Assembly: GCF_026151205.1 (NCBI RefSeq)
Contig: NC_087078.1
Span: 11,232,175-11,296,174, forward strand
Length of the DNA: 64,000 bases
Reading direction: 5' to 3'
DNA from: Bolinopsis microptera
Taxonomy: Eukaryota > Ctenophora > Tentaculata > Lobata > Bolinopsidae
This document shows positions 15,521-55,558 of this stretch, in pieces (position 1 is the stretch's first letter; the number at the start of each line of letters is the position of its first letter). Made by a program: the position numbers and the translations under genes. The notes beneath the pieces are model-generated. The model searched no databases. It worked only from the letters and a program-made list of their open reading frames with translations, and was not told the DNA's origin.

Positions 15521-18500
15521 TTATCCGATGTTGTAAAAATTGCCCCTGTACTGTCCACTTGCCCGGCTTTTTTCACTGGTCACTGACACACTATCGCTAT
15601 CATCTTGAACCGTTTCGTCTGTAAAATACCAAACCTCAACTGTAAGAACATTGAAGGATGACTCTGAGCTTAGTGTATCGTTGTGGAATGTCAAGGACCG
15701 ATTACTGGTTCCTTTTTCAAGCATCTCGTCTAGATAAAGAGCAAAGTTACCATCTCCAGCCCCTACAGTGAAATACTCGTGTGTTCCCATCATGAAATAA
15801 TGGTTGGAACCCTGCCAGAAGTAGCATTTCTCGTCAGGGGACAGTCTGAAGAGGAATGTCTCACCAGAGCCGTAATATTTGGGAGATTGAATGATTCCCT
15901 CGGAGAGATACGCCCCAAACACATACTGCCGTGTATCCTTTATCAGCAAGATACAGGGTAAATCCTGATAAGGCTCACAGTGGTTGTACAAAGACCGTAG
16001 TGACATCCCGTGAACCTTCAGGCTGTAAGCTAGGAGCATGTCTATTCCAATGATGTGACAGGGAAGATACGGCTGCAACTGACCCATCATATCTTCCGTT
16101 AAAAGAACTGATTTTCCGGCCGGATAATTCAGTGTCCCTGAAAAAGGCTCGCTCATCAGATCGGAGTCTACTTCCCGAGGGACAAACTGAGGCGTGCGAT
16201 CTGGAAGAGTTGCATCTGCAAGGCTGGTCCAGTAGTCCTCGTCACATTTCATCAGACAGTTGGAAGTGTCGTCCATTGGTGATAGGTGAGGACACAACTG
16301 GTAGAAATTGTTCATTAACTCAGATACATCCTCCTCTGGAACACACACCCAGAAGTGTGCCTTGCTGTAACCTTCCTCTGTCTCGAACTGATATGAAGGC
16401 TTTCCATGGGTCCTGGTGCAGCAAATTGCGTGAAGGGAAATGAAGATCGAGTACTCGTGTTTATTTGCATTCTCCATAAGAGTTTGCATCTGATTTGTGT
16501 TCTCATCAATTTTCTCAAAGAATGCTTTTGTGGCTAGTGTTGTGTCGGAATCAATTCTATTAATCCTCCCTTCTGGGACATAAGCAGTAGTGTTGAGTGG
16601 ATCGAAATTTGAATTGAAGTTCGGGATGAGAATTTTGTTGTCTTCGCCACCAATGGAAAATGGATTGACCCGTTTGCTGGCAGAGTATCGCCTGGACGCA
16701 AAACCCTCAAACTCATGCTCACAGGCAAAACCCTCAAACTCATGCTTACATGTTGGAGAGTATATGACTGGTGATTGAACAACTGGAGAGTGCCCTAGCT
16801 CAATCTCCCCGGAGGACAGCTCCAGAAAATCTGTGATGGCATGACCTACTTCTGGAGTGGCTGACCCCACGGACCCATGACCAAAATCATTATTTGGATC
16901 AATGATTTTGATTCTAAGCGCCTCCTCTAAATTGTCCTCCTCTAAGCTGACCTCCATGCGAATGTTCTCTTCACCAGACTGGACAGGTGTACCATGACAG
17001 AGCTGATATTTAAGTTCTGTGCACTTCTCACAAGCGTTCTCCACACCAGTGGTGGATTGGATGTTCCCGAGCAATCTCTCAAAAGACTCAAACATGAGTA
17101 TTTCACAGATTGAGTCAAGAGGGATGCTAACGTTGTAATTGTTCTGACCGTTTTGTATAACCAGTTTATCTGAAACATGGGCACGAAACATGAAAGCGTT
17201 TGAAGTCATGAGAGTAGTTCCTCCAACTGAACCATCAAACCTTGTGATCCTCTTCATTGGGTATTTGAAAATTGACTTCTTTGGTGAGGGTGGTATTTTT
17301 TGATCAACAGGATGCAAAGGTGTTTCCGCCACAACAGTTTCATTGCTTTGGAAAATTCTGGGTACAAGAACGCTTTGACCAGGGAAAATGAAGTCTGAAG
17401 TAAGTGCATTGAGCTGTTTCAGCATATTTGGAGATACATTGAACTTCAATGCAATAGTATTGAGAGTTTCATTGTCACTCACAAGATAGCTAACGCTACC
17501 TTCCCTAGATTTTTGCTTTTTCGCCTGTCTCATATTCTGATCCTTTTTAGGCTCATTTGCATTGCCATCCTCCATAATGTCGTGGTGATACAATGGCGAG
17601 TCCTTATCGTTAAAAAAGTCGTCCAATACTGAATAATCCCGGTCTTTATTCCTGGGAGTCAGATTCAAAACTTTGAGATCAGCTTGGTTTGACTCCACAT
17701 CACATTCCGATTCTGAACTTTCATAATCTGTTACAGGGGGTGTGGGGACAGCTGGTGAGTCGTGTTCGTAGTCATCAAATCCCGGGAGATCTGTGTCCAG
17801 CTTCCTTAATTCTCTCTGAGAATATAAAGTATTAAAGTGAGACCAAATTAAAAAGGGTAGTTTGCTGAGTGCTGGGATATGTTAGAGGAAAACTCTTGAC
17901 TAACACACTTTTCATGATTATTACATGTTACAGATTATGAACCATTGAACATTATAGATATTATAATTAGCAGTTTTCAGTATGTGTAAACTCTAGATAT
18001 ATACGATGATAGCCAAAAAACAAATAAATCAGTCTTAGTGTTCTAATTTTTAATGATTGTAGAGAAGAACCATTTATCAACAGACAAAAATTGCAATATT
18101 CTAGCACTGCAGTAGTCATATTATAATTAATGACGCACCTTGCATGCGCATGCTATAATCATATTAACTTTCCTTGTTAATATACATTTCTGTCTGTTTA
18201 GCTTTTTGGTACTGGGTATAATTTGAGTATCATAATAAGGCGACTTGAGCCCTTTTTTGTCTGAATTGTGTACGTCTGAAGTCTGAGTGTTCTTGAGTGG
18301 GTCTGATGGTTCTCCATCTTGATCGGTAAAAGTCGCATTTTCAGAACTGTCAGTATTTGTATGTTTCTGATTGTTGAATTTTATTGAGTCAGAGTATTTT
18401 TAACTTATGGTATTTCTAATTCTATAAGAAAAAGTATATAAAAGTTGACACTTGATAATCTTGTATTTCATTGACATACATTATTAAAACAAAAATTGCC

Positions 18501-31422: not shown

Positions 31423-32390
31423 TAATCTGTGGGCATGAAGGTTACCATTAATATGTTACGAAAATTATCCACATTGACTTTTTTTTCAGAATTACATGCA
31501 GTCTAGTTAACAGTTATATACAGAGTGAAAATTTCTAAAACTACACACCCATTTTTGGAGTTAGAAAGACCTATAGTTGTATACTTCTTTTGATTTAGTT
31601 ATAAAATAAGATTATAACTTAATTAAGGGGGGGGGGGGGGGGGGTCTTCATCAAAATTCTCTAGAAATTGATTTTATAGTTGTTTCTGATAGAATGGAGT
31701 GATATCTATCAGCTGCTTTTGCAGGTCCCGTGGAAAAACATTGTATTTACTTTCTTTTTTTTAAATTGTATTTTACTTATTCGATTTTGAAAATCTTGGA
31801 CCTGGAAAAATCGTCAAAAAATGAGGTCCAAGATTTTGGTCAGAAATATACAAAAAGACCCTGTTATGTTTTTTAAACTCCAAAACACCTAATAGTTGTC
31901 ACAGAGCTGGGCCTGGGGTGTGAAAATAGTCAGGGTTATTATTAATTGGAGGACGTCGCCGCTTCGATGCACCACGCAATGTAATGCAAACTATCAAGAT
32001 TTCAAAGGGTTGACATCGTCAATCAACAGCAAGTCCAACTCTGTGCCTTACAAATTGTTAATGGACTGATCCGGCGCACACCAACGACAGCACATTCAAT
32101 TTCATACGTATGAAATAGTTTATATAACCTGCTTTATTTTGCATTAATAAGTTGACGTGTTACGACCAAAATTGAAGAGGAATCGTTTAAGATCACTGCA
32201 TCAAAGTATGCGCCTCAACAAAAGCTACTTATGCTTTTTACGGAGAAATAAGATAATAGTGTTTTTGAGTATGTTGATCTGTTTCAAAAGCATTCTGAGT
32301 GATTTATATAAGGGCATATACTGATTTTAAATACATTGCAAAAGATTTGATATCGATTCATGAAGTTTAAAAAAAGTTACTGCAATACTG

Positions 32391-34279
32391 AAAAGTGGAA
32401 CAATGCCATTGGCATGTAAAATTGCATCAGTCACTCCAATTCTTAAAACTGGTGACCCTAATGATCCAAATAACTACCGGCCAATATCCATACTCCCCCT
32501 ACTTGGAAAATGCATAGAATATTTTGTTAACCAACAGCTTACAGAGTATGTTGAAACCAATAAACTGCTTACCAACCATCAGTATGGATTTAGAAAAGAT
32601 CATTCCACCACTTTTCTAATGCTTAATCTATTTGATAAAATATTTACGTCTAAGGAATCACAGAAGAAACCTGCAATTGTATTCTTAGATATTAAAAAGG
32701 CCTTTGACACAGTAAGCCATAATATTTTATTAAAAAAACTTAAGTATTATGGAGTTGATGGCTTTGTCATAAAGTGGTTCAAAAGCTACCTTGGGGACAG
32801 AAAGCAGCACACCAAAATACGTGGTAATGTAAGCACATCACTCCCTGTTAAAACAGGTGTGCCACAGGGTAGCATATTAGGACCAATTCTATTTAGTTTA
32901 TTCATAAATGATCTCAGTAGAAATTGCACACAATCTACTGTTTACTTATTTGCAGATGACAGTGCACTATATTTTGATAACATTTCCCGAGGCATATATG
33001 AGAATGTAATTAAGGATATGAAAATTGTGTATGAATGGCTTAGAATCAACAAGCTGAGGCTAAATGCTGCAAAATCTTCATTCATTGTATTTGATAGATC
33101 ACCTAATCTGGACACGTTGTCAATCCCTCTGGATTTGGAAAAAGAATGCCTATTTATAGAAGAAACTAAATCTCAAAAATATTTAGGTCTCATGATAGAC
33201 AATTTATTGAACTTTCAAGACCATATTGATTATTTGAAATCAAAAATTGCTAAAAGAATAGGGGCATTATACAGGTCGAAAAATCTTCTTCCACTGAAAT
33301 ATAGAAAAATGTTTGTAAATGCTCTTATGCTCCCCCAATTTGACTACCTGGATATAATATGGTGTAGGGCTGCCAAAACCAAACTTAATTCTCTTGATAT
33401 ATTATACAAGAAAGTAGCAAAAATTGCTCTGGATGTTCATTGGCAGGAACCATCAGTAAATGTATATCGAAATATGAAGTGGTTACCCTTACACTTAAGA
33501 AGACAACTCCATCTATCAACGTATATGTATAAAATTCTTAATGAGGCTGCACCATCATCATTCACAGATAAATTTTCTTATGTATCCGGAGGATCACGTG
33601 ATGCTGAGAGGTGCAACCTTTATATTCACAAATCCAGAACACACAAAACCTTTACATATTTAGGTGCAAAATGTTGGAATACAATTCCAGAGAACATAAG
33701 GACTATAGAATGTAGTGTAAAATTCTCACAATGTATGAAATCTAAATTTATGTCAGATGTAATTCAAGGAGTCTCATCCTATGAAATAAACAATAGTTTC
33801 GACTATTTCTACACTCTAGCTATGTGACAACTGAAACAAATTTTATGGTGCTGGAGTTTTTGTCGGGTGGAAAGGCCCCCTGTATTATACATGACCTATT
33901 TCCAGAAGTATAGAACTTTAAACATCTCCTTTACTCGTTCCCATTTGTTATCATTGCCAATCTATTATTGTTCTATACTTCTCTGTATATAACTGTAAAT
34001 AACATTACTAATGTAATCCCAAAGTGGGCATCTATGTAATCTTAATTGTTACCTTCATGCCCACAGTTCACTGTTAAATCATATCTTATTTTATCACTCA
34101 TTAATTTATTACTCATTATGTTTTACATACTATATCCTTATGTCCCTAAGGGTGTTCTGCTAACATTTTTCGACTGACTTGAATGTCCTGCACAGCAGAT
34201 TGAAGCTTCTTAAATTATTTTTTATTCTTATTGTATTGCTGTGTAAATTTGATTCTAATTCTAATTCTAATTCTAATTC
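32391..34279 (+). mobile_element. 5'-truncated LINE in unit B
   Basis: Inserted between copies of TACTG (32386-32390 and 34280-34284). The same target site is empty in unit A. The 3' end is a short ttctaa/attcta microsatellite, a LINE-type tail. The 5' end is truncated inside the reverse transcriptase region. Confidence 0.85.
32403..33827 (+). CDS. LINE reverse transcriptase fragment (unit B)
   Basis: 474-residue open frame with the reverse transcriptase core: ITPILKTGD-like start (VTPILKTGDPNDPNNYRPIS), FLDIKKAFDTVSHNILLKKL, TGVPQGSILGPILFSLFIND and the catalytic FADD (LFADDSALYF). Its tail has the Jockey/CR1-group pattern (FTYLGAKCWNTIPENIR). It lacks the endonuclease and the start of the reverse transcriptase because the insertion is 5'-truncated, so it cannot mobilise itself. 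The encoded protein is identical to the unit C copy. Confidence 0.85.
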   Translation: MPLACKIASVTPILKTGDPNDPNNYRPISILPLLGKCIEYFVNQQLTEYVETNKLLTNHQYGFRKDHSTTFLMLNLFDKIFTSKESQKKPAIVFLDIKKAFDTVSHNILLKKLKYYGVDGFVIKWFKSYLGDRKQHTKIRGNVSTSLPVKTGVPQGSILGPILFSLFINDLSRNCTQSTVYLFADDSALYFDNISRGIYENVIKDMKIVYEWLRINKLRLNAAKSSFIVFDRSPNLDTLSIPLDLEKECLFIEETKSQKYLGLMIDNLLNFQDHIDYLKSKIAKRIGALYRSKNLLPLKYRKMFVNALMLPQFDYLDIIWCRAAKTKLNSLDILYKKVAKIALDVHWQEPSVNVYRNMKWLPLHLRRQLHLSTYMYKILNEAAPSSFTDKFSYVSGGSRDAERCNLYIHKSRTHKTFTYLGAKCWNTIPENIRTIECSVKFSQCMKSKFMSDVIQGVSSYEINNSFDYFYTLAM

Positions 34280-34960
34280 TACTGAAGGCGCAGTAATTTT
34301 TGAATTTTGAGGCAAAGCTTTAATTTTGGTTATTTAATATACTTCCAGGATGAATCGCTGTTCTAAATTCTTTATAAGTTCTGTTATAAATAGAGAGAAT
34401 AATCAATGAAACAAGAAATTTCAATGAAACAAGAAATTTAATTTTAGCACATTTTACAGAATAAAAAGATGTAAAACAATTCATAAAATATAATGCACAT
34501 TTTGGTGTATGACTTTTTGTCCTTGACTGCTTGTTTGGTTTCGGAAGGACAGGTAACTTACGGGGCAAGGAATGCGCGTGCCTGGAAGCTTTTGCATACA
34601 CCGAAACGCTAGTTCAGTCAAGTTTTTAGAGACAAGGCTCACATTAGGACTAAAAGAAAAATTGTTAACAGACATTAGGGGTTCTGTTTAAAGCGGAATG
34701 CGACTGCATTTAATGCGGAATGCGACTGCTTTTCTTGTTGATGGATCGTTAATAGACTTTTGTGCTTTCACGCTTATGATCATTTGTCATAAATACTCTA
34801 TATTGTACCATTGCTTTTATTTAAACTACCGTGTACAATTAAATAAACATGTGAGAATTTGATGTCTTTTGTATCGACTGTATGTTATATCCCTATATAA
34901 TATAACAAAATCATGATTACATAGCATGGCAATTGTGTGAGAACATAAGGCAACTATTAT

Positions 34961-35656: not shown

Positions 35657-36630
35657 TAATCTGTGGGCATGAAGGTTACCATTAATATGTTACGAAAATT
35701 ATCCACATTGACTTTTTTTTCAGAATTACATGCAGTCTAGTTAACAGTTATATACAGAGTGAAAATTTCTAAAACTACACACCCATTTTTGGAGTTAGAA
35801 AGACCTATAGTTGTATACTTCTTTTGATTTAGTTATAAAATAAGATTATAACTTAATTAAGGGGGGGGGGGGGGGGGGGGGGGGTCTTCATCAAAATTCT
35901 CTAGAAATTGATTTTATAGTTGTTTCTGATAGAATGGAGTGATATCTATCAGCTGCTTTTGCAGGTCCCGTGGAAAAACATTGTATTTACTTTCTTTTTT
36001 TTAAATTGTATTTTACTTATTCGATTTTGAAAATCTTGGACCTGGAAAAATCGTCAAAAAATGAGGTCCAAGATTTTGGTCAGAAATATACAAAAAGACC
36101 CTGTTATGTTTTTTAAACTCCAAAACACCTAATAGTTGTCACAGAGCTGGGCCTGGGGTGTGAAAATAGTCAGGGTTATTATTAATTGGAGGACGTCGCC
36201 GCTTCGATGCACCACGCAATGTAATGCAAACTATCAAGATTTCAAAGGGTTGACATCGTCAATCAACAGCAAGTCCAACTCTGTGCCTTACAAATTGTTA
36301 ATGGACTGATCCGGCGCACACCAACGACAGCACATTCAATTTCATACGTATGAAATAGTTTATATAACCTGCTTTATTTTGCATTAATAAGTTGACGTGT
36401 TACGACCAAAATTGAAGAGGAATCGTTTAAGATCACTGCATCAAAGTATGCGCCTCAACAAAAGCTACTTATGCTTTTTACGGAGAAATAAGATAATAGT
36501 GTTTTTGAGTATGTTGATCTGTTTCAAAAGCATTCTGAGTGATTTATATAAGGGCATATACTGATTTTAAATACATTGCAAAAGATTTGATATCGATTCA
36601 TGAAGTTTAAAAAAAGTTACTGCAATACTG

Positions 36631-38519
36631 AAAAGTGGAACAATGCCATTGGCATGTAAAATTGCATCAGTCACTCCAATTCTTAAAACTGGTGACCCTA
36701 ATGATCCAAATAACTACCGGCCAATATCCATACTCCCCCTACTTGGAAAATGCATAGAATATTTTGTTAACCAACAGCTTACAGAGTATGTTGAAACCAA
36801 TAAACTGCTTACCAACCATCAGTATGGATTTAGAAAAGATCATTCCACCACTTTTCTAATGCTTAATCTATTTGATAAAATATTTACGTCTAAGGAATCA
36901 CAGAAGAAACCTGCAATTGTATTCTTAGATATTAAAAAGGCCTTTGACACAGTAAGCCATAATATTTTATTAAAAAAACTTAAGTATTATGGAGTTGATG
37001 GCTTTGTCATAAAGTGGTTCAAAAGCTACCTTGGGGACAGAAAGCAGCACACCAAAATACGTGGTAATGTAAGCACATCACTCCCTGTTAAAACAGGTGT
37101 GCCACAGGGTAGCATATTAGGACCAATTCTATTTAGTTTATTCATAAATGATCTCAGTAGAAATTGCACACAATCTACTGTTTACTTATTTGCAGATGAC
37201 AGTGCACTATATTTTGATAACATTTCCCGAGGCATATATGAGAATGTAATTAAGGATATGAAAATTGTGTATGAATGGCTTAGAATCAACAAGCTGAGGC
37301 TAAATGCTGCAAAATCTTCATTCATTGTATTTGATAGATCACCTAATCTGGACACGTTGTCAATCCCTCTGGATTTGGAAAAAGAATGCCTATTTATAGA
37401 AGAAACTAAATCTCAAAAATATTTAGGTCTCATGATAGACAATTTATTGAACTTTCAAGACCATATTGATTATTTGAAATCAAAAATTGCTAAAAGAATA
37501 GGGGCATTATACAGGTCGAAAAATCTTCTTCCACTGAAATATAGAAAAATGTTTGTAAATGCTCTTATGCTCCCCCAATTTGACTACCTGGATATAATAT
37601 GGTGTAGGGCTGCCAAAACCAAACTTAATTCTCTTGATATATTATACAAGAAAGTAGCAAAAATTGCTCTGGATGTTCATTGGCAGGAACCATCAGTAAA
37701 TGTATATCGAAATATGAAGTGGTTACCCTTACACTTAAGAAGACAACTCCATCTATCAACGTATATGTATAAAATTCTTAATGAGGCTGCACCATCATCA
37801 TTCACAGATAAATTTTCTTATGTATCCGGAGGATCACGTGATGCTGAGAGGTGCAACCTTTATATTCACAAATCCAGAACACACAAAACCTTTACATATT
37901 TAGGTGCAAAATGTTGGAATACAATTCCAGAGAACATAAGGACTATAGAATGTAGTGTAAAATTCTCACAATGTATGAAATCTAAATTTATGTCAGATGT
38001 AATTCAAGGAGTCTCATCCTATGAAATAAACAATAGTTTCGACTATTTCTACACTCTAGCTATGTGACAACTGAAACAAATTTTATGGTGCTGGAGTTTT
38101 TGTCGGGTGGAAAGGCCCCCTGTATTATACATGACCTATTTCCAGAAGTATAGAACTTTAAACATCTCCTTTACTCGTTCCCATTTGTTATCATTGCCAA
38201 TCTATTATTGTTCTATACTTCTCTGTATATAACTGTAAATAACATTACTAATGTAATCCCAAAGTGGGCATCTATGTAATCTTAATTGTTACCTTCATGC
38301 CCACAGTTCACTGTTAAATCATATCTTATTTTATCACTCATTAATTTATTACTCATTATGTTTTACATACTATATCCTTATGTCCCTAAGGGTGTTCTGC
38401 TAACATTTTTCGACTGACTTGAATGTCCTGCACAGCAGATTGAAGCTTCTTAAATTATTTTTTATTCTTATTGTATTGCTGTGTAAATTTGATTCTAATT
38501 CTAATTCTAATTCTAATTC
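36631..38519 (+). mobile_element. 5'-truncated LINE in unit C
   Basis: Same insertion, target site and 3' tail as the copy in unit B, so it was multiplied by the tandem duplication and not inserted twice. Confidence 0.85.
36643..38067 (+). CDS. LINE reverse transcriptase fragment (unit C)
   Basis: 474-residue ORF with a protein sequence identical to that at 32403-33827, including FADD and the GAKCWN tail. The identity dates the B/C duplication as recent. Confidence 0.85.
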   Translation: MPLACKIASVTPILKTGDPNDPNNYRPISILPLLGKCIEYFVNQQLTEYVETNKLLTNHQYGFRKDHSTTFLMLNLFDKIFTSKESQKKPAIVFLDIKKAFDTVSHNILLKKLKYYGVDGFVIKWFKSYLGDRKQHTKIRGNVSTSLPVKTGVPQGSILGPILFSLFINDLSRNCTQSTVYLFADDSALYFDNISRGIYENVIKDMKIVYEWLRINKLRLNAAKSSFIVFDRSPNLDTLSIPLDLEKECLFIEETKSQKYLGLMIDNLLNFQDHIDYLKSKIAKRIGALYRSKNLLPLKYRKMFVNALMLPQFDYLDIIWCRAAKTKLNSLDILYKKVAKIALDVHWQEPSVNVYRNMKWLPLHLRRQLHLSTYMYKILNEAAPSSFTDKFSYVSGGSRDAERCNLYIHKSRTHKTFTYLGAKCWNTIPENIRTIECSVKFSQCMKSKFMSDVIQGVSSYEINNSFDYFYTLAM

Positions 38520-39195
38520 TACTGAAGGCGCAGTAATTTTTGAATTTTGAGGCAAAGCTTTAATTTTGGTTATTTAATATACTTCCAGGATGAATCGCTG
38601 TTCTAAATTCTTTATAAGTTCTGTTATAAATAGAGAGAATAATCAATGAAACAAGAAATTTCAATGAAACAAGAAATTTAATTTTAGCACATTTTACAGA
38701 ATAAAAAGATGTAAAACAATTCATAAAATATAATGCACATTTTGGTGTATGACTTTTTGTCCTTGACTGCTTGTTTGGTTTCGGAAGGACAGGTAACTTA
38801 CGGGGCAAGGAATGCGCGTGCCTGGAAGCTTTTGCATACACCGAAACGCTAGTTCAGTCAAGTTTTTAGAGACAAGGCTCACATTAGGACTAAAAGAAAA
38901 ATTGTTAACAGACATTAGGGGTTCTGTTTAAAGCGGAATGCGACTGCATTTAATGCGGAATGCGACTGCTTTTCTTGTTGATGGATCGTTAATAGACTTT
39001 TGTGCTTTCACGCTTATGATCATTTGTCATAAATACTCTATATTGTACCATTGCTTTAAACTACCGTGTACAATTAAATAAACATGTGAGAATTTGATGT
39101 CTTTTGTATCGACTGTATGTTATATCCCTATATAATATAACAAAATCATGATTACATAGCATGGCAATTGTGTGAGAACATAAGGCAACTATTAT

Positions 39196-42100: not shown

Positions 42101-45100
42101 GGGGGACCCTGATCCTTTGCCTTGTACTGTAAAGTTCTTGGTATCGATCTGACATCACTGATGACCTCTCTCACCATATCAGTAGGATATGAAGACCGTT
42201 CAAAAAACAACTGAAGCTCTGCCAATCTCTCATCTCATGGTTTTAATTCAAGGGAGAAAAACATCAATCAAGGACAATCATCGATCATATAACTGAGAAA
42301 GTGATAGCATTGCGGAATGCCTACATTTAATCCTTCACACTTGTATATAATATATTGAATGCACTACTTATAATGAAATGAAAATAAAATCATCAAAAAC
42401 TGAAACCAAAAAATCACAAACCATATCAGTTTTGTTATTTATGTCGAAACGTGAAAGATTTGATAAGAAAGACAATTAAACCTATCAAAAATTATTTTGA
42501 TCAGTATTCTTTTTAATTCACAACATTTAAATTTATACATCCAACAAACAATAAAGTAAATAGTTCATCCATTCTGCCGTTTAAGCAGTCATTGTTCATT
42601 TAACTGGTTCGTTCTGTCATTTTCCTGCCTCTTTCTTTCAATTTCCTGCTTTACTTTTTCTATATTTCTGCCCCAGTTCTTCCTCCTGCAAATATTAAGA
42701 GTTTCTTTAATTATTACTTTCTCCATAAAAACCTTGTTTTTTAGTGATCATATAAAAAATGTGAAACAGTCCTTTGAATAACGAATTTTATATTATTAAA
42801 ATGAAGAGCTGCCCATGTGACACGACCACATGGGGAGACAAAATAGCAAAGAAAAGCAGCCCCGTGCATCAAATACCTGGTATCATTTCAGTTGTAGTGC
42901 CGGGAATGAGGTAGTTTAGCACCTGGACCTTCAAACGGAGAAACTTTCGGAAGCTTTTCACTGTCAGACTATAGATGTAAAAATTACTGATGGTGTTAAG
43001 AAAGAGGAAAGAAATACCCAGCCTAAAAAAGGTGTTGTGGAAAAAGCTCTGACTTTTGTTTTCCGTCTGGACAAGAGCTTGACTGACTCGATACACCACA
43101 TAAGGTATCGTGGAAACACAGGAAACAGTTGCTGTCAGAACTGTTGTGATGATTCCTTGCCACTTGAGACTGCCTCGGCTCCGCTTCACCACTCGTTTAG
43201 CAATGAGCATGAGGTTGATGGTGGAGCCTACCACGAGACATGTTGGGATGAAGTGAACTAATGTCATTATGAGAGGTCTTAACCACTGCCATATGTCAGC
43301 TGAGTAACCAAAGGCACATAGGTAGCTTCTATATGAGAAGTATACGTCACTCTTATCTATCATGCTTATGAAGATTAGGGTCGTGCTCAAAATGGTCAAC
43401 CAGCAGCCAGCACAAACCATATGGACTGTTTTCCTTGTTGTTATTCGTAGTGGAGACTTGAGGATCGCCAGCTTACTCACAGCCATGGTGCAAATAAGAA
43501 GGCCAGATACAGTGTAACAGATGTGACTCAAGTAGGCGGAAATGTAGCAGAGAGTCTCTCCAAGGACCCAATCACCAGCAACAAGAGAGATCATCATGGG
43601 GACCACCATAGTGATAGAAACTAAAATATCGCTCACTGCAATGTGCTCGATGATGATGACGACAACTTTGTGAAGTCTAAAGGCCCTGTACTTGATGGAT
43701 GCTATCAGAATAGTCATATCCCCTATTATGGAGGATAGCACGACAAATAGGTAGAATCCAGCCCAAGTGTATCTAGCGGACTTGCTATGGATTCCCCACA
43801 AAGTTTTGTTGTTATACTCGTATTCATAAACTGGGTAGGTCACCATTTTGAGGAAGCCAAGGTTTGCGGTAGTGAGTGAACGACAATGCAAAGAGGGGCG
43901 ACTATAAAAAACTATAAATCGGCAAGGTATTTTAAGGTTCCTAGGAATTTGCTACTCAGTAAGAGATTTTATGATTTGGAATAGCTCTCCTCATTTCAAC
44001 TGTCCTCTTAAAAGAAATTGTATGATTGGAGAATCGGTGTGATACGGAGCTTGGGACAGATGTAGTTACCTTCAAGGAACTATTATTTCAGCTAATTCTG
44101 AAGATAACTTGCATCACTGTAAAACTTTCAGAAGAAACAAATGATATTCTACCGAAAACAGCTGTTTAGTGCTCACCAGGTGGTCACCTTCAGTGGTCAA
44201 TATTAAGCTAAAATGTACATATTGTGATATATAAAAGTATATATAGCGAGCATGTTTACCAGTCCCATAACTCTTGCCGTTTTCTTAATTAAGCCGCTCG
44301 GAAATTACCCACAGACAGACACACAAACATTTTGGAATTATTAGTGTAGATTGCGTGCAGCTGCAACTTAACTGCCGCATGACAATATAGCATCAAAATT
44401 AAATTTAACTTGAGTCATAGCAACATTATCAGATCTTTGAATATACTACTAATAAAAGCTTAACGGCGCCTGAATTCTTTCATCAACTGTGCCAATGAGA
44501 CTATGAGAGTGACAGTGTGGTCAGGTCGACTTAACCAGCTCGAGTATTATATACCAGCTAGTTGCTAGCATACGCACTAACTCCACTAAAGTATATAATG
44601 TATAATAGTATAGTGTCTGATGTTATCATCTAGCGCCAGCATTTAGTTGAATATTATTTATTCAGTGTGTATGTACATATTTTATTGATTGATTGTGTAA
44701 TTTCCGAGCGGCTTTATTACGAAAACGGTAAGTTTAGGTTATTTCGGTATAGTTTAGACAAAACAGCTGCATGAAATAATAGTTCCTTGCAGGTAACTAC
44801 ATCTGTCCCAAGCTCCGTATTACACCGATTCTCCAATCATAAAATTTCTTTTAAGAGGACAGTTGAATTTAAAATGAGGAGATCTATTTTGAATCATAAA
44901 ATCTCTTACTGAGTAGCAAATTCCTTGGAACCTTAAAAAACCTTGCCGATTTATAGTTTTTTATAATCGCCCCTCTTTGCATTGTCGTTCACTCACTACC
45001 GTAAACCTTGGCTTCCTCAAAATGGTGACCTACCCAGTTTATGAATACGAGTATAACAACAAAACTTTGTGGGGAATCCATAGCAAGTCCACTAGATACA

Positions 45101-50457: not shown

Positions 50458-50697
50458 CCCCCCCCCCCCCCCCCCCCCCCTTTTTGACTTTTTTCCCTGG
50501 AAAACACTTCTCTAAGTTTTATGTCATGCTACCCTGATCTTTAGGAGCTGAAGTCATTGTTATGATATCCGGCCAAGCACCTTTCAAACTACTTACTATA
50601 TAATCGGATATCCGATTGATTTCTAAATTTTATCACTATCAGAGTGAAATTGAGTGGAATTGGAATTACAATATTGTCAAATTGTTATCACTCTAGA

Positions 50698-51110
50698 TAG
50701 TTAGGGAGGATATGTCAGGAATATCAATGGCGTGGGATTAGTTTAGTAAAAGCAATTTGACTTCAAGAATCACTAGTTGGAAGCCTAAACTAAAGGATTC
50801 TTATAGGTGGCAATTTTTATTTTGGCGGGAACACCCATATACGGGCCACGCCCTTTTTTAAAAATCCGAAAAATCCGAAATGCTTATATTGATAGTAGAC
50901 TAGGCTTGTGGGGTACCAAAAGAAAGGTAATGACCCACTGAAGTCAGGAAAAATAAATGTGGGGTTCCCTGCCCTTCCATATGGGCGAAAACGGCGAAAT
51001 CGACGAAAACGGGCGAGAAAATGACATTTTTTGAAAATTGTTCTATACTAGGCATGTGGGGTACTAAAAGAAGCGTAATGGTCCAGTGAGTGAATATAAT
51101 CACCTTGTGG
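50698..51110 (+). repeat. Left terminal inverted repeat
   Basis: Inverse of 55165-55555 with scattered mismatches and small indels, strongest over the outer ~230 bp. Confidence 0.9.
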
Positions 51111-51476
51111 GCCTCCAAAATGTATCAGGTGGGCATAAACAGCGTGACTAGATTCGGAAGAATACTTGAATGTTCTGCTTGCGCTCAGAGGGTTATTTCA
51201 TTACAGAGCAGTGCATGCATTTATTAATTTATATTATATCCCGGGCGTATACTAAGTAGGGTGGAAATATCTCATAATATATATATACTAGAAAACCCGT
51301 GGTCACAGGGAAGAAGGTAATAGTATTTTTATCTATCTTTACAGTCAGTTTAGTAGTCAGTTTTTGTTGCATCAGAAAATATCCGTCACAACCAAAGATA
51401 CAGCCGAATTAAATGTAAAACACGTTAAACACAACGTAATTACCACAAAATCGATAAAAATCGCGCTCGTAAATAT

Positions 51477-53417
51477 TTGCACGTGCAGGTTCGTGTACAG
51501 TGTACCAATCTTCGTTACCATGGTTACTATGCAATCTTTTGCTTTTTACGTGGGCGGTCGTACAGACAGACAGACAGAGATATATACAGCGATTCAACTA
51601 TAGAAGACAATGAACCTATCTACCATGCTATTGACAATGTAGATGTTGAGAATGATGATTGGAATGGCAAAGGAGAGCTCCATGGGACAGCAATGATGGT
51701 ATTGCAGAAGAGAACTACTGCCATGATAGCTAACTCATCTCCTCAGCTCCTACTAAATCGTAAGAAGAAGCTTCGGTCAATACGCTCAACTGAAGAAGAG
51801 CAGTTACTGCCGCACTGTGCTAAGCCAACTCCTCCTAACCTCAATTATGATACATACCACACAATGGAAGCTGCGGAACTACCCAAGATGCAAGATGAAA
51901 ATTGGGCTCTGCTTAAAAACACAGTGCCAGAGCCAGAAACTGTCCCTACATGGAAAGGCCTAAATTCCCTTATCAATGAGAGACCCGGCTATATGACACT
52001 GCGAGAAATGCTGCCGCCTCTTTACACCTCTCCAACAGACTGGTCAACCTTGTACGGAGCACTGAAGATTTGTCAAGGTATCACCACTCAAGTTACTCCT
52101 GGAAGAAAGACAATTATTAGCCTTGATATGCAGCTTTATATAAAAGCTGTCCAGCTACAAAGTAAAGGAGATGTTAACGATGGTATGGTCTTCAGAATGG
52201 GTGAACTCCATGCAGTGTTTGTCACGTGCAGAGTGGTAGGCAAACAAATCAGTGAGAGTGGATTTGACCATATGTTCATCCGGTGTGGGATCTATGGTCC
52301 CACAACCATGGGTCAAATCATAGATGGCAAACATATGCAGCGTTGCCTTACAGCCTACATGATCCTGTACCTTGCTCTACATGAAGTCATGTTAAATAAC
52401 ATCTTTGAGGATGACCAGCTAATGCGTGACCAAGTGAATGCTGCAATTACTACTTTCTCAACCAAAGTAGGTCCTTCCTATGAGACCCAGTCTGCTTTAT
52501 TAGATCTATTTGATGAACTTACCGAGGAATTGAAAAAGACTGATTACTATGAGAAGGTGAAGACGTACAGGAGTAACCTGAAGAAGCAGGCAAAGTTCTT
52601 TGATAACATAATGACCAGCATAGAAGATCTGATGATGTTTATCCGTGCAACTAGAACCGCTAACTGGAAGATGCACCTTCAGTCCCTCTCTCAATTGGTC
52701 AAGTACTTCTTTGCCTTAGACTTCCAGAATTATGCGAGGATGACACCTGTCTACCTTGCTTCCATGAAGAAGTTGCAAACTCATGACACTGAAACATGGA
52801 CGTATCTAGATGAGGGTAACTTTGGATGTTGGACGTCTGACATTCCCTTTGTTTGCCTAGGGGGAGATCATGCAATGGAGCAGGGAATCAGGGGGTTTAA
52901 GACTACAGGAGGGCCTTCACATATGACGTCTGACCATGATGCTAGGAATGTTTATTTCAAATCAGCCCCAGCAATGGCAAGAACAGTGACTGATTTTAAA
53001 CAGACGTACCACATCAAGAAGAAGGATGAGAGAGACCTTCACTACGAGCTCACTGGTGGCAGTAACAGAGTACTCTGCTCTAATGTCAGGCTAATGGTAG
53101 AGGCAATGAATGAGATGGATGTTACGTTCAATGAGAGTGATGTTGTCCACAATGTAATGTCCCGCTGTGTTTTAGAGAATGACCATGGTCTGCTGAACAT
53201 CTGTGAACTTGGACGGGCGGCTGAGGACACATTCGTGACTGAAAGAATACTTGGAGATGAGCCAGTTTGGTCACCGATGAAGAAATTGAAGCTGTATCTT
53301 TTCAGAGACTCGGTTAAGGCTGTCAAGGTCAAGGTCGCCAAAGGATTTGTAATCATGAAGGAGGAGAGGGGCATGATGACCAAATGGATGATAGCCTCAA
53401 AGAACAGGCTGAAATAG
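51477..53417 (+). CDS. Transposon ORF1: large conserved protein of unknown fold
   Basis: The frame is open for 646 codons but opens with TTG. The first good ATG in frame is near 51693. Recognisable conserved stretches are LDMQLYIKAVQLQ, FRMGELHAVFVTCRVVGKQI, SGFDHMFIRCGIYG, and, before the stop, KVAKGFVIMKEER then MTKWMIASKNR. These are the hallmarks I associate with the N-terminal half of a family of large uncharacterised invertebrate proteins in which this part is followed in one chain by the nuclease-like part of ORF2. No catalytic motif is evident here. The stop at 53415-53417 comes where the family should continue, so a -1 shift or a lost base separates the halves. Confidence 0.75.
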   Translation: MHVQVRVQCTNLRYHGYYAIFCFLRGRSYRQTDRDIYSDSTIEDNEPIYHAIDNVDVENDDWNGKGELHGTAMMVLQKRTTAMIANSSPQLLLNRKKKLRSIRSTEEEQLLPHCAKPTPPNLNYDTYHTMEAAELPKMQDENWALLKNTVPEPETVPTWKGLNSLINERPGYMTLREMLPPLYTSPTDWSTLYGALKICQGITTQVTPGRKTIISLDMQLYIKAVQLQSKGDVNDGMVFRMGELHAVFVTCRVVGKQISESGFDHMFIRCGIYGPTTMGQIIDGKHMQRCLTAYMILYLALHEVMLNNIFEDDQLMRDQVNAAITTFSTKVGPSYETQSALLDLFDELTEELKKTDYYEKVKTYRSNLKKQAKFFDNIMTSIEDLMMFIRATRTANWKMHLQSLSQLVKYFFALDFQNYARMTPVYLASMKKLQTHDTETWTYLDEGNFGCWTSDIPFVCLGGDHAMEQGIRGFKTTGGPSHMTSDHDARNVYFKSAPAMARTVTDFKQTYHIKKKDERDLHYELTGGSNRVLCSNVRLMVEAMNEMDVTFNESDVVHNVMSRCVLENDHGLLNICELGRAAEDTFVTERILGDEPVWSPMKKLKLYLFRDSVKAVKVKVAKGFVIMKEERGMMTKWMIASKNRLK

Positions 53418-54895
53418 ACCTTCAGGCGATCACAGCCAGGCATGAGTTCACAGTCGTGCCAAGGGCACTGTGCTCTGCCGATGGTATGCCACATCCCTGT
53501 AAGGATAAGTACCTGCTCCTCTCAACCCTAGAAGAACATGTTGGGTATCAGGTGACACCTCCTGCTAAACCTCCTGCTAAAGCCAGCTATATCATCATTG
53601 ACGCCATGGCGATCGTAAACAAGATCTCCATTGAGCTACCGCAGAATAAGATCAACACCGTGCAAGACTTTGGTGATCATTTCGTCAAGCGTGTAGCTGG
53701 TGAATCAAGAGGCTTTGAGAATGTCCTTCTAGTGTTTGATAGATATGATTTCCCCATGTCACTAAAAGCAATGACCAGAGATCAGAGGACTAATGGAAAA
53801 CAAGTGCAGTTCAGACTAGCTCATAACACAGACATAGGAAAGCTCAAAACAAAGATGCTACTCTCCCACGTCAAGACCAAAGTCACGCTTACGAAGATCC
53901 TAGCAGAACGGGCAGAGGAGGCATTCATAGCATCAGAAGCAAGCTACACCGTTGTCTATGGAGAAACTATCAAATCTAACATGGACATGATGGCAAATGA
54001 GACTGATCACACACAAGAGGAAGCTGATACCCTGATGATCAAGCTGGTCAATGTCATTATATCAGCAGTGACTTCATCATACATTGTCGTGAGCTCTCCA
54101 GACACAGACGTGTTTGTTCTCCTTCTATTACCAGCTCTCACTGCTCATCACCAGCGACAGACTGGAGTTGATGAATGGAATAAGATTGTCGTCAGAACAG
54201 GAACCAAAGCCAAGCACAGAGATCTGCCCATGGACTACTTTATTGGTAAACTAGATGAACACCTTGTAGCAGGTATGGTTGGGTTTCACTCCTTCAGTGG
54301 GTGCGATCAAATAGGAACGTACCATGGTATCTCCAAAGCGAGGCTCCTCAAGCTGTATCTAGCTTCTACATCTGATGAAGTGCGCTGCTTTAGTATGTTA
54401 AGTGAAGATGATGTAGATATGGAAGCGTTGAATGGTGGTTTGGAACAGTTCCTGATGAAGGCATACATGACTAAAGGTATTGTAGCTGTCAGTATTGGTG
54501 AATTACGGTGGCAATTATTCAGCAAGAAACAGCTCACCTCAGAGAAGTTACCCCCGACAATGGGAGCACTGAAGTGGAAGATCCTCAGAAGCCATTATGT
54601 GACAATTGTCTGGAAGAGATCACTGCTGAGCTTTGAGGCTATTTACCCTGACCCTCTCCAATTTGGGTGGTTATCCAACCCTTCAGGGAATGCTCATCTA
54701 GCCTTGGTGCCTATCCTAACAGATGAGCCACCGGTGCCTGAAGCCACGCTGGACATGACGGATTGTGGTTGCAAGAAAACCAAGTGTATTGCAGGGTCAT
54801 GTTCATGTAGAAAGGTTGGCTTGAGGTGCACTGCACTGTGCCGCTGTGTAGATTGTTCAAACATCAGTGACCTTGACAATGATCTAGAGATTTAG
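53384..54895 (+). CDS. Transposon ORF2: XPG/FEN-like PIN nuclease with CXC tail
   Basis: 503 codons from ATG at 53384, overlapping ORF1 by 34 nt in the -1 frame. The spacing of acidic motifs matches the XPG/FEN-like branch of PIN nucleases: an N-terminal Asp (YIIIDAMAIVNK), FDRYD, QEEADTLMIKL (like the EAEA motif), SSPDTDVFVLLL (like the ED-SD motif) and HSFSGCDQIGTYHGISK (like GCDYxPGIxGIG). The C-terminus has a CXC/tesmin-type cluster (CGCKKTKC, CSCRKVGLRC, CRCVDCSN) that may bind DNA. The nuclease assignment is by motif reading only. A transposition role follows from its location between long TIRs. Confidence 0.75.
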   Translation: MDDSLKEQAEIDLQAITARHEFTVVPRALCSADGMPHPCKDKYLLLSTLEEHVGYQVTPPAKPPAKASYIIIDAMAIVNKISIELPQNKINTVQDFGDHFVKRVAGESRGFENVLLVFDRYDFPMSLKAMTRDQRTNGKQVQFRLAHNTDIGKLKTKMLLSHVKTKVTLTKILAERAEEAFIASEASYTVVYGETIKSNMDMMANETDHTQEEADTLMIKLVNVIISAVTSSYIVVSSPDTDVFVLLLLPALTAHHQRQTGVDEWNKIVVRTGTKAKHRDLPMDYFIGKLDEHLVAGMVGFHSFSGCDQIGTYHGISKARLLKLYLASTSDEVRCFSMLSEDDVDMEALNGGLEQFLMKAYMTKGIVAVSIGELRWQLFSKKQLTSEKLPPTMGALKWKILRSHYVTIVWKRSLLSFEAIYPDPLQFGWLSNPSGNAHLALVPILTDEPPVPEATLDMTDCGCKKTKCIAGSCSCRKVGLRCTALCRCVDCSNISDLDNDLEI

Positions 54896-55164
54896 ATTTT
54901 AGCTGACGTCTAATTATGAACAATGTGAAATCTGACACAAGTATACATGATTTAGAGATTACTTGTATTTGATGTTTTCAGTGAAATTTTGTTGTTTATT
55001 TGTAATGTTGTTTGTTTATTTCCAATAAGTTGATCAGGACATGGTTTTTACACACAACTTTTGTCTTTGTTTTGTTTTCAAGAGGCAGGAAATAAAAATC
55101 ATGAAAAACAAGAATTACTGCGTAACGTTCAATACAAAGTTTTTGGAAAATGTTTAGTCACTGT

Positions 55165-55555
55165 TATAATCACTCACAGGACCATTACGCTTCTTTTGGT
55201 ACCCCACATGGCTAGTATAGAACAATTTTCAAACAAGGCAATTATCTTGCCAATTTTCGCCGTTTTCGCCTTTTATGCCCGTATGGTGTATTGGGAAGAG
55301 CCAAACTTATTTTCACTGAGTTCAGTGGGCCAATACCTTTCTTTTGGTACCCCACAAGCCTAGTCTACTATCAATATAAGCATTTCGGATTTTTCGGATT
55401 TTTAAAAAAGGGCGTGGCCCGTATAGGGGTGTTCCCGCCAAAATAAAAATTGCCACCTATAAAAATCCTTTAGTTTAGGCTTCCAACTAGTGATTCTTGA
55501 AGTCAAATTGCTTTTACTAAACTAATCCCACGCCATTACATACCCTCCCTAACTA
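55165..55555 (-). repeat. Right terminal inverted repeat
   Basis: Partner of the left TIR. Ends CCCTCCCTAACTA against AGA. Confidence 0.9.
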
Positions 55556-55558
55556 AGA

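Follow-up and report, generated by a model that had tools for sequence, protein, structure and literature searches.

We analyzed a 64,000-nucleotide stretch of the genome of the ctenophore Bolinopsis microptera (contig NC_087078.1, positions 11,232,175 to 11,296,174), hereafter called the window, in which a first-pass annotation had marked a DNA transposon carrying two overlapping open reading frames (ORFs) between terminal inverted repeats (TIRs). The element ends at window positions 50698 and 55555, for a length of 4.9 kb, and is very probably a decayed cut-and-paste DNA transposon of the AcademX type of the Academ superfamily. The following features were placed, with the evidence for each in parentheses.

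50695-50697, no strand: target-site duplication (TSD), left copy, AGA (letters read; the joined flanks match other places in the genome across the junction)
50698-51099, plus strand: left TIR, starting with TAGTTAGGGAGG (arm alignment; outer part shared with nine shorter copies, see below)
50896-50941, plus strand: 46-nt subterminal repeat, outer unit of the left arm (inverted-repeat pairs I3 and I4)
51044-51089, plus strand: 46-nt subterminal repeat, inner unit of the left arm (inverted-repeat search)
51477-53417, plus strand: ORF1, front part of the gene with a predicted DDE transposase domain (646 aa; core at residues ~45-511, window 51609-53009)
53384-53417, plus strand: frame-shift zone, overlap of ORF1 and ORF2 (both parts lie in one frame in P0067, P0069, P0072, and others)
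53384-54895, plus strand: ORF2, rear part of the gene with a predicted FEN/EXO1/XPG-type nuclease fold (503 aa; residues 42-425, window 53507-54658)
54761-54862, plus strand: CXC (Tesmin/TSO1-like) cysteine-rich tail (Pfam PF03638, E 5.3e-06, 27.1 bits against a cut-off of 23.5)
55164-55555, minus strand: right TIR (arm alignment)
55556-55558, no strand: TSD, right copy, AGA (letters read)

The annotation had described an element bounded by TIRs of about 400 bp with a 3-bp AGA duplication in its flanks, and the ends, the arms, and the AGA were all confirmed. The TIR arms, 402 bp on the left and 392 bp on the right, are identical in 357 of 406 columns when aligned end to end, which amounts to 92.0% over ungapped columns, with a single 10-bp insertion or deletion close to the tip. 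A separate inverted-repeat search recovered them as two ungapped blocks of 237 nt (96%) and 123 nt (85%). In pairs I3 and I4, the inner 46-nt unit of one arm matches the outer unit of the other at 80-83%; these units may be transposase-binding repeats. Shortly upstream of the element, a run of 23 C residues occupies window positions 50458-50480.

Searching the genome with the TIR sequence, as the annotation had suggested, revealed more copies with 3-bp duplications. The outer 265 bp of the element, used as the query, matched 29 places, and 14 stretches from this search were examined for duplications along with the window copy. Both ends were readable in 11 of these 15 loci (no readable pair of ends was found in L034, L039, L040, and L041), and all 11 carry an exact 3-bp TSD, whereas none has a 4-bp TSD. 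The duplicated triplets are varied in sequence (AGA, TTC, CAC, TAA, CAA, TAA, TAT, ATA, AAA, GTA, and AAT), and since the probability of agreement between two 3-mers drawn at random from the window is only 0.019, agreement in every readable copy is not attributable to chance. We also joined the two flanks of the window element and used them as a 249-nt query, with the junction at position 138, against the same genome. Among the best 40 of 506 candidates scored, at least 39 other places run across the junction at 88-93% identity, starting at query positions 1-9 and reaching 175-184 of 249; the remaining row is the window itself, which stops at the junction. Because the flanks continue uninterrupted elsewhere, the element was inserted in one copy of a dispersed repeat, and the other copies are without it; these empty copies are known by their coordinates only.

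Nine of the 11 readable copies (L029-L033 and L035-L038) are 1.4-4.8 kb long, mostly about 3.6 kb (L038, 1.4 kb; L037, 4.8 kb), and match the window element in their outer 146-161 bp alone, at about 94-99% identity. These shorter copies look like non-autonomous passengers. Long stretches of them are about 98-99% alike among themselves, and the interior of L029 is itself mostly an inverted repeat of about 1.38 kb at 90%.

Between the TIRs, ORF1 and ORF2 overlap in different frames and occupy most of the interior. The predicted structure of ORF1 combines an RNase H core and a long helical insertion preceding the catalytic E, and is P/hAT-like according to structural comparisons, for which, as for ORF2, the best 1000 chains returned by Foldseek were re-examined. 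Candidate catalytic residues are D53 (51633-51635), D217 (52125-52127), and E468 (52878-52880), and a GELH motif with H245 is also present. A Pfam scan of ORF1 gave a single match, below its cut-off. Among 29 relatives scanned, five have a match to the Pfam family DUF6589 touching the transposase core at E up to 0.1, and the family rises just above its cut-off in P0021 and P0108; it was seen at two weak places in the B. microptera genome, both below the cut-off, and in none of 14 control genomes. No link between DUF6589 and Academ was found in print, with 0 occurrences in PMC10799480 and in each of five other papers listed. A profile search of the PDB with the transposase alignment listed nine sequences, none of them a DDE enzyme. 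The annotation had recognized no DDE/DDD transposase, which holds for ORF2 but not for the element, given the DDE domain predicted in ORF1.

ORF2 carries all five acidic motifs that had been read in it, in the expected order, and their positions were checked: D73 (IDAMA), D119 (FDRYD), E212/E213/D215 (EEADT), D240/D242 (SPDTDV), and D308 (SGCD), with D240-T241-D242 invariant in 50 of 50 aligned sequences. The proposal of a FEN/XPG-like PIN nuclease agrees with the predicted fold of residues 42-425, which matches EXO1, FEN1, and XPG in structural comparisons. Sequence similarity to these enzymes is low, at about 10-14% identity (14% with human EXO1); a profile search connected the ORF2 nuclease with EXO1 only at E 0.05, and Pfam XPG gave no match in ORF2 at E up to 10. 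By its predicted fold and ordered acidic residues, the ORF2 domain thus qualifies as a putative member of the FEN/XPG/EXO1 superfamily, one that, unlike the known enzymes, is fused behind a transposase in a mobile element. The CXC tail noted behind it was confirmed, its cysteine cluster passing the PF03638 cut-off, and also matches LIN54 (E 0.0099); among relatives, PF03638 is above its cut-off in L011 and below it in L026. An RNase H fold, named beforehand as an outcome that would count against the nuclease proposal, does appear, but in the ORF1 prediction and not in ORF2. We rejected ORF2 as a DDE transposase, as the FEN fold is predicted in ORF2 and the DDE fold in ORF1; since the predicted DDE domain belongs to the same protein, the nuclease would be the partner of a classical transposase rather than the transposase itself.

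That both ORFs belong to one protein is apparent from the relatives. P0067, a protein of 962 aa in one frame, covers both: it matches ORF1 at 99% identity across 467 residues and ORF2 at 98% across 498. Using profiles of both parts, we found transposase and nuclease in one frame, transposase first, in 22 of 22 proteins of at least 1250 aa (9 from genome loci and 13 from the protein database), a biased sample in that all were retrieved by nuclease-bearing or fused queries; the 13 database proteins were themselves in the transposase profile, and the nuclease profile included none of the 22. Among the seven proteins of 1000-1249 aa, four match both profiles (P0098 partly) and three match the transposase alone (P0070, P0099, and P0108), although P0070, at least, looks truncated because it matches the initial residues of ORF2. 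A true two-ORF gene was therefore rejected, both parts being fused in relatives: the overlapping ORFs that had been reported describe the window copy correctly but not the gene, which is read in a single frame elsewhere. The window copy is frame-shifted where the two ORFs overlap and is missing the first 300-490 residues present in its relatives; it is thus probably inactive. Only one other closely related copy with the gene was found, L042, which represents the same insertion as L009. It likewise lacks that part in its front region and contains an internal deletion and a reverse-transcriptase-like ORF. The latter, at L009 7069-9033 on the minus strand, encodes 655 aa and is reverse-transcriptase-like by eye.

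Alternatively, a transposon of a known superfamily could merely have taken up a FEN1/EXO1 gene of its host in this genome, and the predicted fold of the nuclease is indeed that of host repair enzymes. However, the nuclease is in frame with the transposase in all 22 long proteins, 13 of them from the protein database, and the two parts have diverged in step. In 23 proteins of at least 1100 aa, after dropping the near-identical L012 and L021 and those with fewer than 250 nuclease residues, pairwise transposase and nuclease distances correlate with r 0.97, a value reached in 0 of 9999 permutations, and the correlation is still 0.93 when restricted to the 232 pairs, of 253, whose transposase distance exceeds 0.5. 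The low identity to human EXO1 and the missing Pfam XPG match also speak against a capture. We rejected this explanation, which appears extremely improbable in view of the one-frame fusion in relatives and the correlated distances; these distances indicate that the nuclease is an old partner of the transposase in these proteins.

ORF2-like sequences occur in at least 85 places of the genome at E up to 0.001 (85 of 188 candidates scored). Twenty gene-bearing loci were fetched for family analysis and fall into families A (window, L009), B (L010-L014), C (L015-L017), D (L018-L023, L025), E (L026-L028), and F (L024). Similar ends are found in families A (TAGTTAGGGAGG), B (TAGTAAGGGG), and D (TACTCTAGTAGCAGGGAGG), and complete B and D elements are about 7-7.7 kb long. 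The gene lies between paired TIRs in 12 of the 20 loci: L009, all five of family B (L010-L014, by coordinates only), five of seven in family D (L018, L020-L023), and one of three in family E (L026). In L019 and L025 the right end was seen, and alignment to L018 and L021 places the left end beyond the fetched stretch; L027 shows its right end, and L028 has a partial TIR pair cut by the locus edge. For L015-L017 and L024, no TIR was detected within the fetched 9.5 kb. Family D loci have TSDs of CCT (L020), GCA (L021), and TAC (L023), and no TSD was found in L026 at the border as set. Tandem arrays accompany two of the families, with a 42-bp unit repeated 16 times upstream of the gene in L011 (538-1216, family B) and a 196-bp unit repeated 9 times downstream of it in L016 (6865-8637, family C).

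The eight loci in which the fetched stretch holds no complete TIR pair would be in keeping with a host gene family, domesticated or ordinary, lying between repeats by chance. This is nonetheless very unlikely, as the five family B copies are 99.3-99.8% alike over long matches, each between paired ends, and the window copy is frame-shifted. At the window locus, this explanation is contradicted by the TSDs and the junction-spanning flank matches. The element is instead a bounded unit with 3-bp duplications, and its two coding parts form one protein in relatives. As had been anticipated for invertebrates, a protein search linked it to uncharacterized proteins, with sources including Hydra vulgaris, Actinostola, Nymphon, and Pinctada, and also Eptatretus.

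The fold predicted for the transposase resembles that of P element and hAT (Hermes) transposases in both its RNase H core and the long helical insertion ahead of the E, yet identities in the structural alignments are 6-8%, and the nuclease and CXC domains are additional here. P element and hAT transposons have 8-bp TSDs, and despite the similar fold both were rejected by the 3-bp TSD. AcademX nucleases are probably of XPG type, a point not stated in the literature found. Kojima and Bao 2023 (PMC10045372) attribute a nuclease and 3- or 4-bp duplications to AcademX, and a helicase and 9- or 10-bp duplications to AcademH, and relate this difference in TSD length to the encoded nuclease or helicase; no further account of the Academ nuclease domain emerged from the literature search, as far as the texts were available. 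In PMC9587614, Academ is listed among the DDD/E-transposase superfamilies. The element fits AcademX because its predicted DDD/E transposase, its nuclease in the same element, and its 3-bp TSD all match these printed features. AcademH resembles it in having an accessory enzyme alongside the transposase, but with a helicase and a longer TSD; no helicase family was found in Pfam scans of the window element and relatives, and AcademH was rejected because the TSD is 3 bp. Kolobok lineages follow the same principle of a DDE transposase with an added DNA enzyme, although, according to PMC9587614, their enzymes differ (lambda-exonuclease-like, His-Me, DnaQ, RecQ) and their TSD is a TTAA-specific 4-bp one, and they were rejected on the eleven 3-bp TSDs of varied sequence. 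The reference list of PMC4455052 contains the 2010 Repbase report naming Academ, and a bivalve study gives a mean length of 5565 bp for curated Academ elements (PMC10294476), compared with 4.9 kb for the window element and about 7-7.7 kb for complete B and D elements.

The annotation had instead proposed an unnamed transposon group, which is probably wrong given the features shared with the named AcademX as described in PMC10045372 and PMC9587614. A group close to this proposal, placed outside Academ and having a DDE transposase of its own and a FEN-type nuclease acquired independently, has two points in its favor: the AcademX assignment rests on the printed description, not on direct comparison with Academ reference sequences, and DUF6589, which touches the transposase core of some relatives, is itself of unknown function. 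We nevertheless consider it unlikely, as all three printed AcademX features are found here. The CXC tail and the predicted P/hAT-like and EXO1-like folds are results of the present analysis.

Elsewhere in the window, positions 31627-34817 and 35867-39057 hold an exact 3191-bp duplicate, 4240 bp apart, containing two identical 474-aa ORFs that are reverse-transcriptase-like in appearance; the sequence was either duplicated in tandem recently or duplicated in the assembly. Two long minus-strand ORFs, LysM/TLDc-like (15521-17698) and rhodopsin receptor-like (42869-43891) by eye, are presumably host genes. No Rfam match reached the gathering cut-off across the window.

Taken as AcademX, an intact element would comprise TIRs of about 400 bp and one gene for a protein of 1.4-1.6 kaa, with an N-terminal Cys/His region (lost in the window copy), a DDE transposase, a FEN/EXO1-type nuclease, and a CXC domain in this order. 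It would most likely move by cut-and-paste, the N-terminal region, and perhaps the CXC domain as an aid to DNA binding, recognizing the subterminal repeats. On account of its predicted fold and the duplications, the DDE domain would most likely cut the TIRs and join them with a 3-bp stagger, and the FEN-type domain, going by its enzyme family, would most likely remove unpaired 5′ nucleotides at excised or inserted ends or cut the second strand. In a bolder and rather unlikely reading, the flap nuclease could be a working part of transposition and not baggage, with P/hAT-like DDE strand transfer and FEN/EXO1 second-strand cutting or 5′-flap removal combined in one polypeptide and setting the 3-bp TSD. 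If true, this would provide, in principle, a eukaryotic counterpart of the two-nuclease scheme of Tn7, formed by TnsB and TnsA, and a division of labor behind the 3-bp TSD that sets the element apart from the helicase-bearing lineage. The element fits as a further member of the known AcademX group, and its interest lies in the two-enzyme protein. Structures are predicted for both parts, the DDE core being P/hAT-like and the nuclease EXO1/FEN1-like, and the two have evolved in step. Uncharacterized proteins of Hydra, sea anemone, sea spider, hagfish, and pearl oyster are thereby tied to a transposon type, and why a transposon that moves by cut-and-paste should encode a flap nuclease of its own becomes a testable question.
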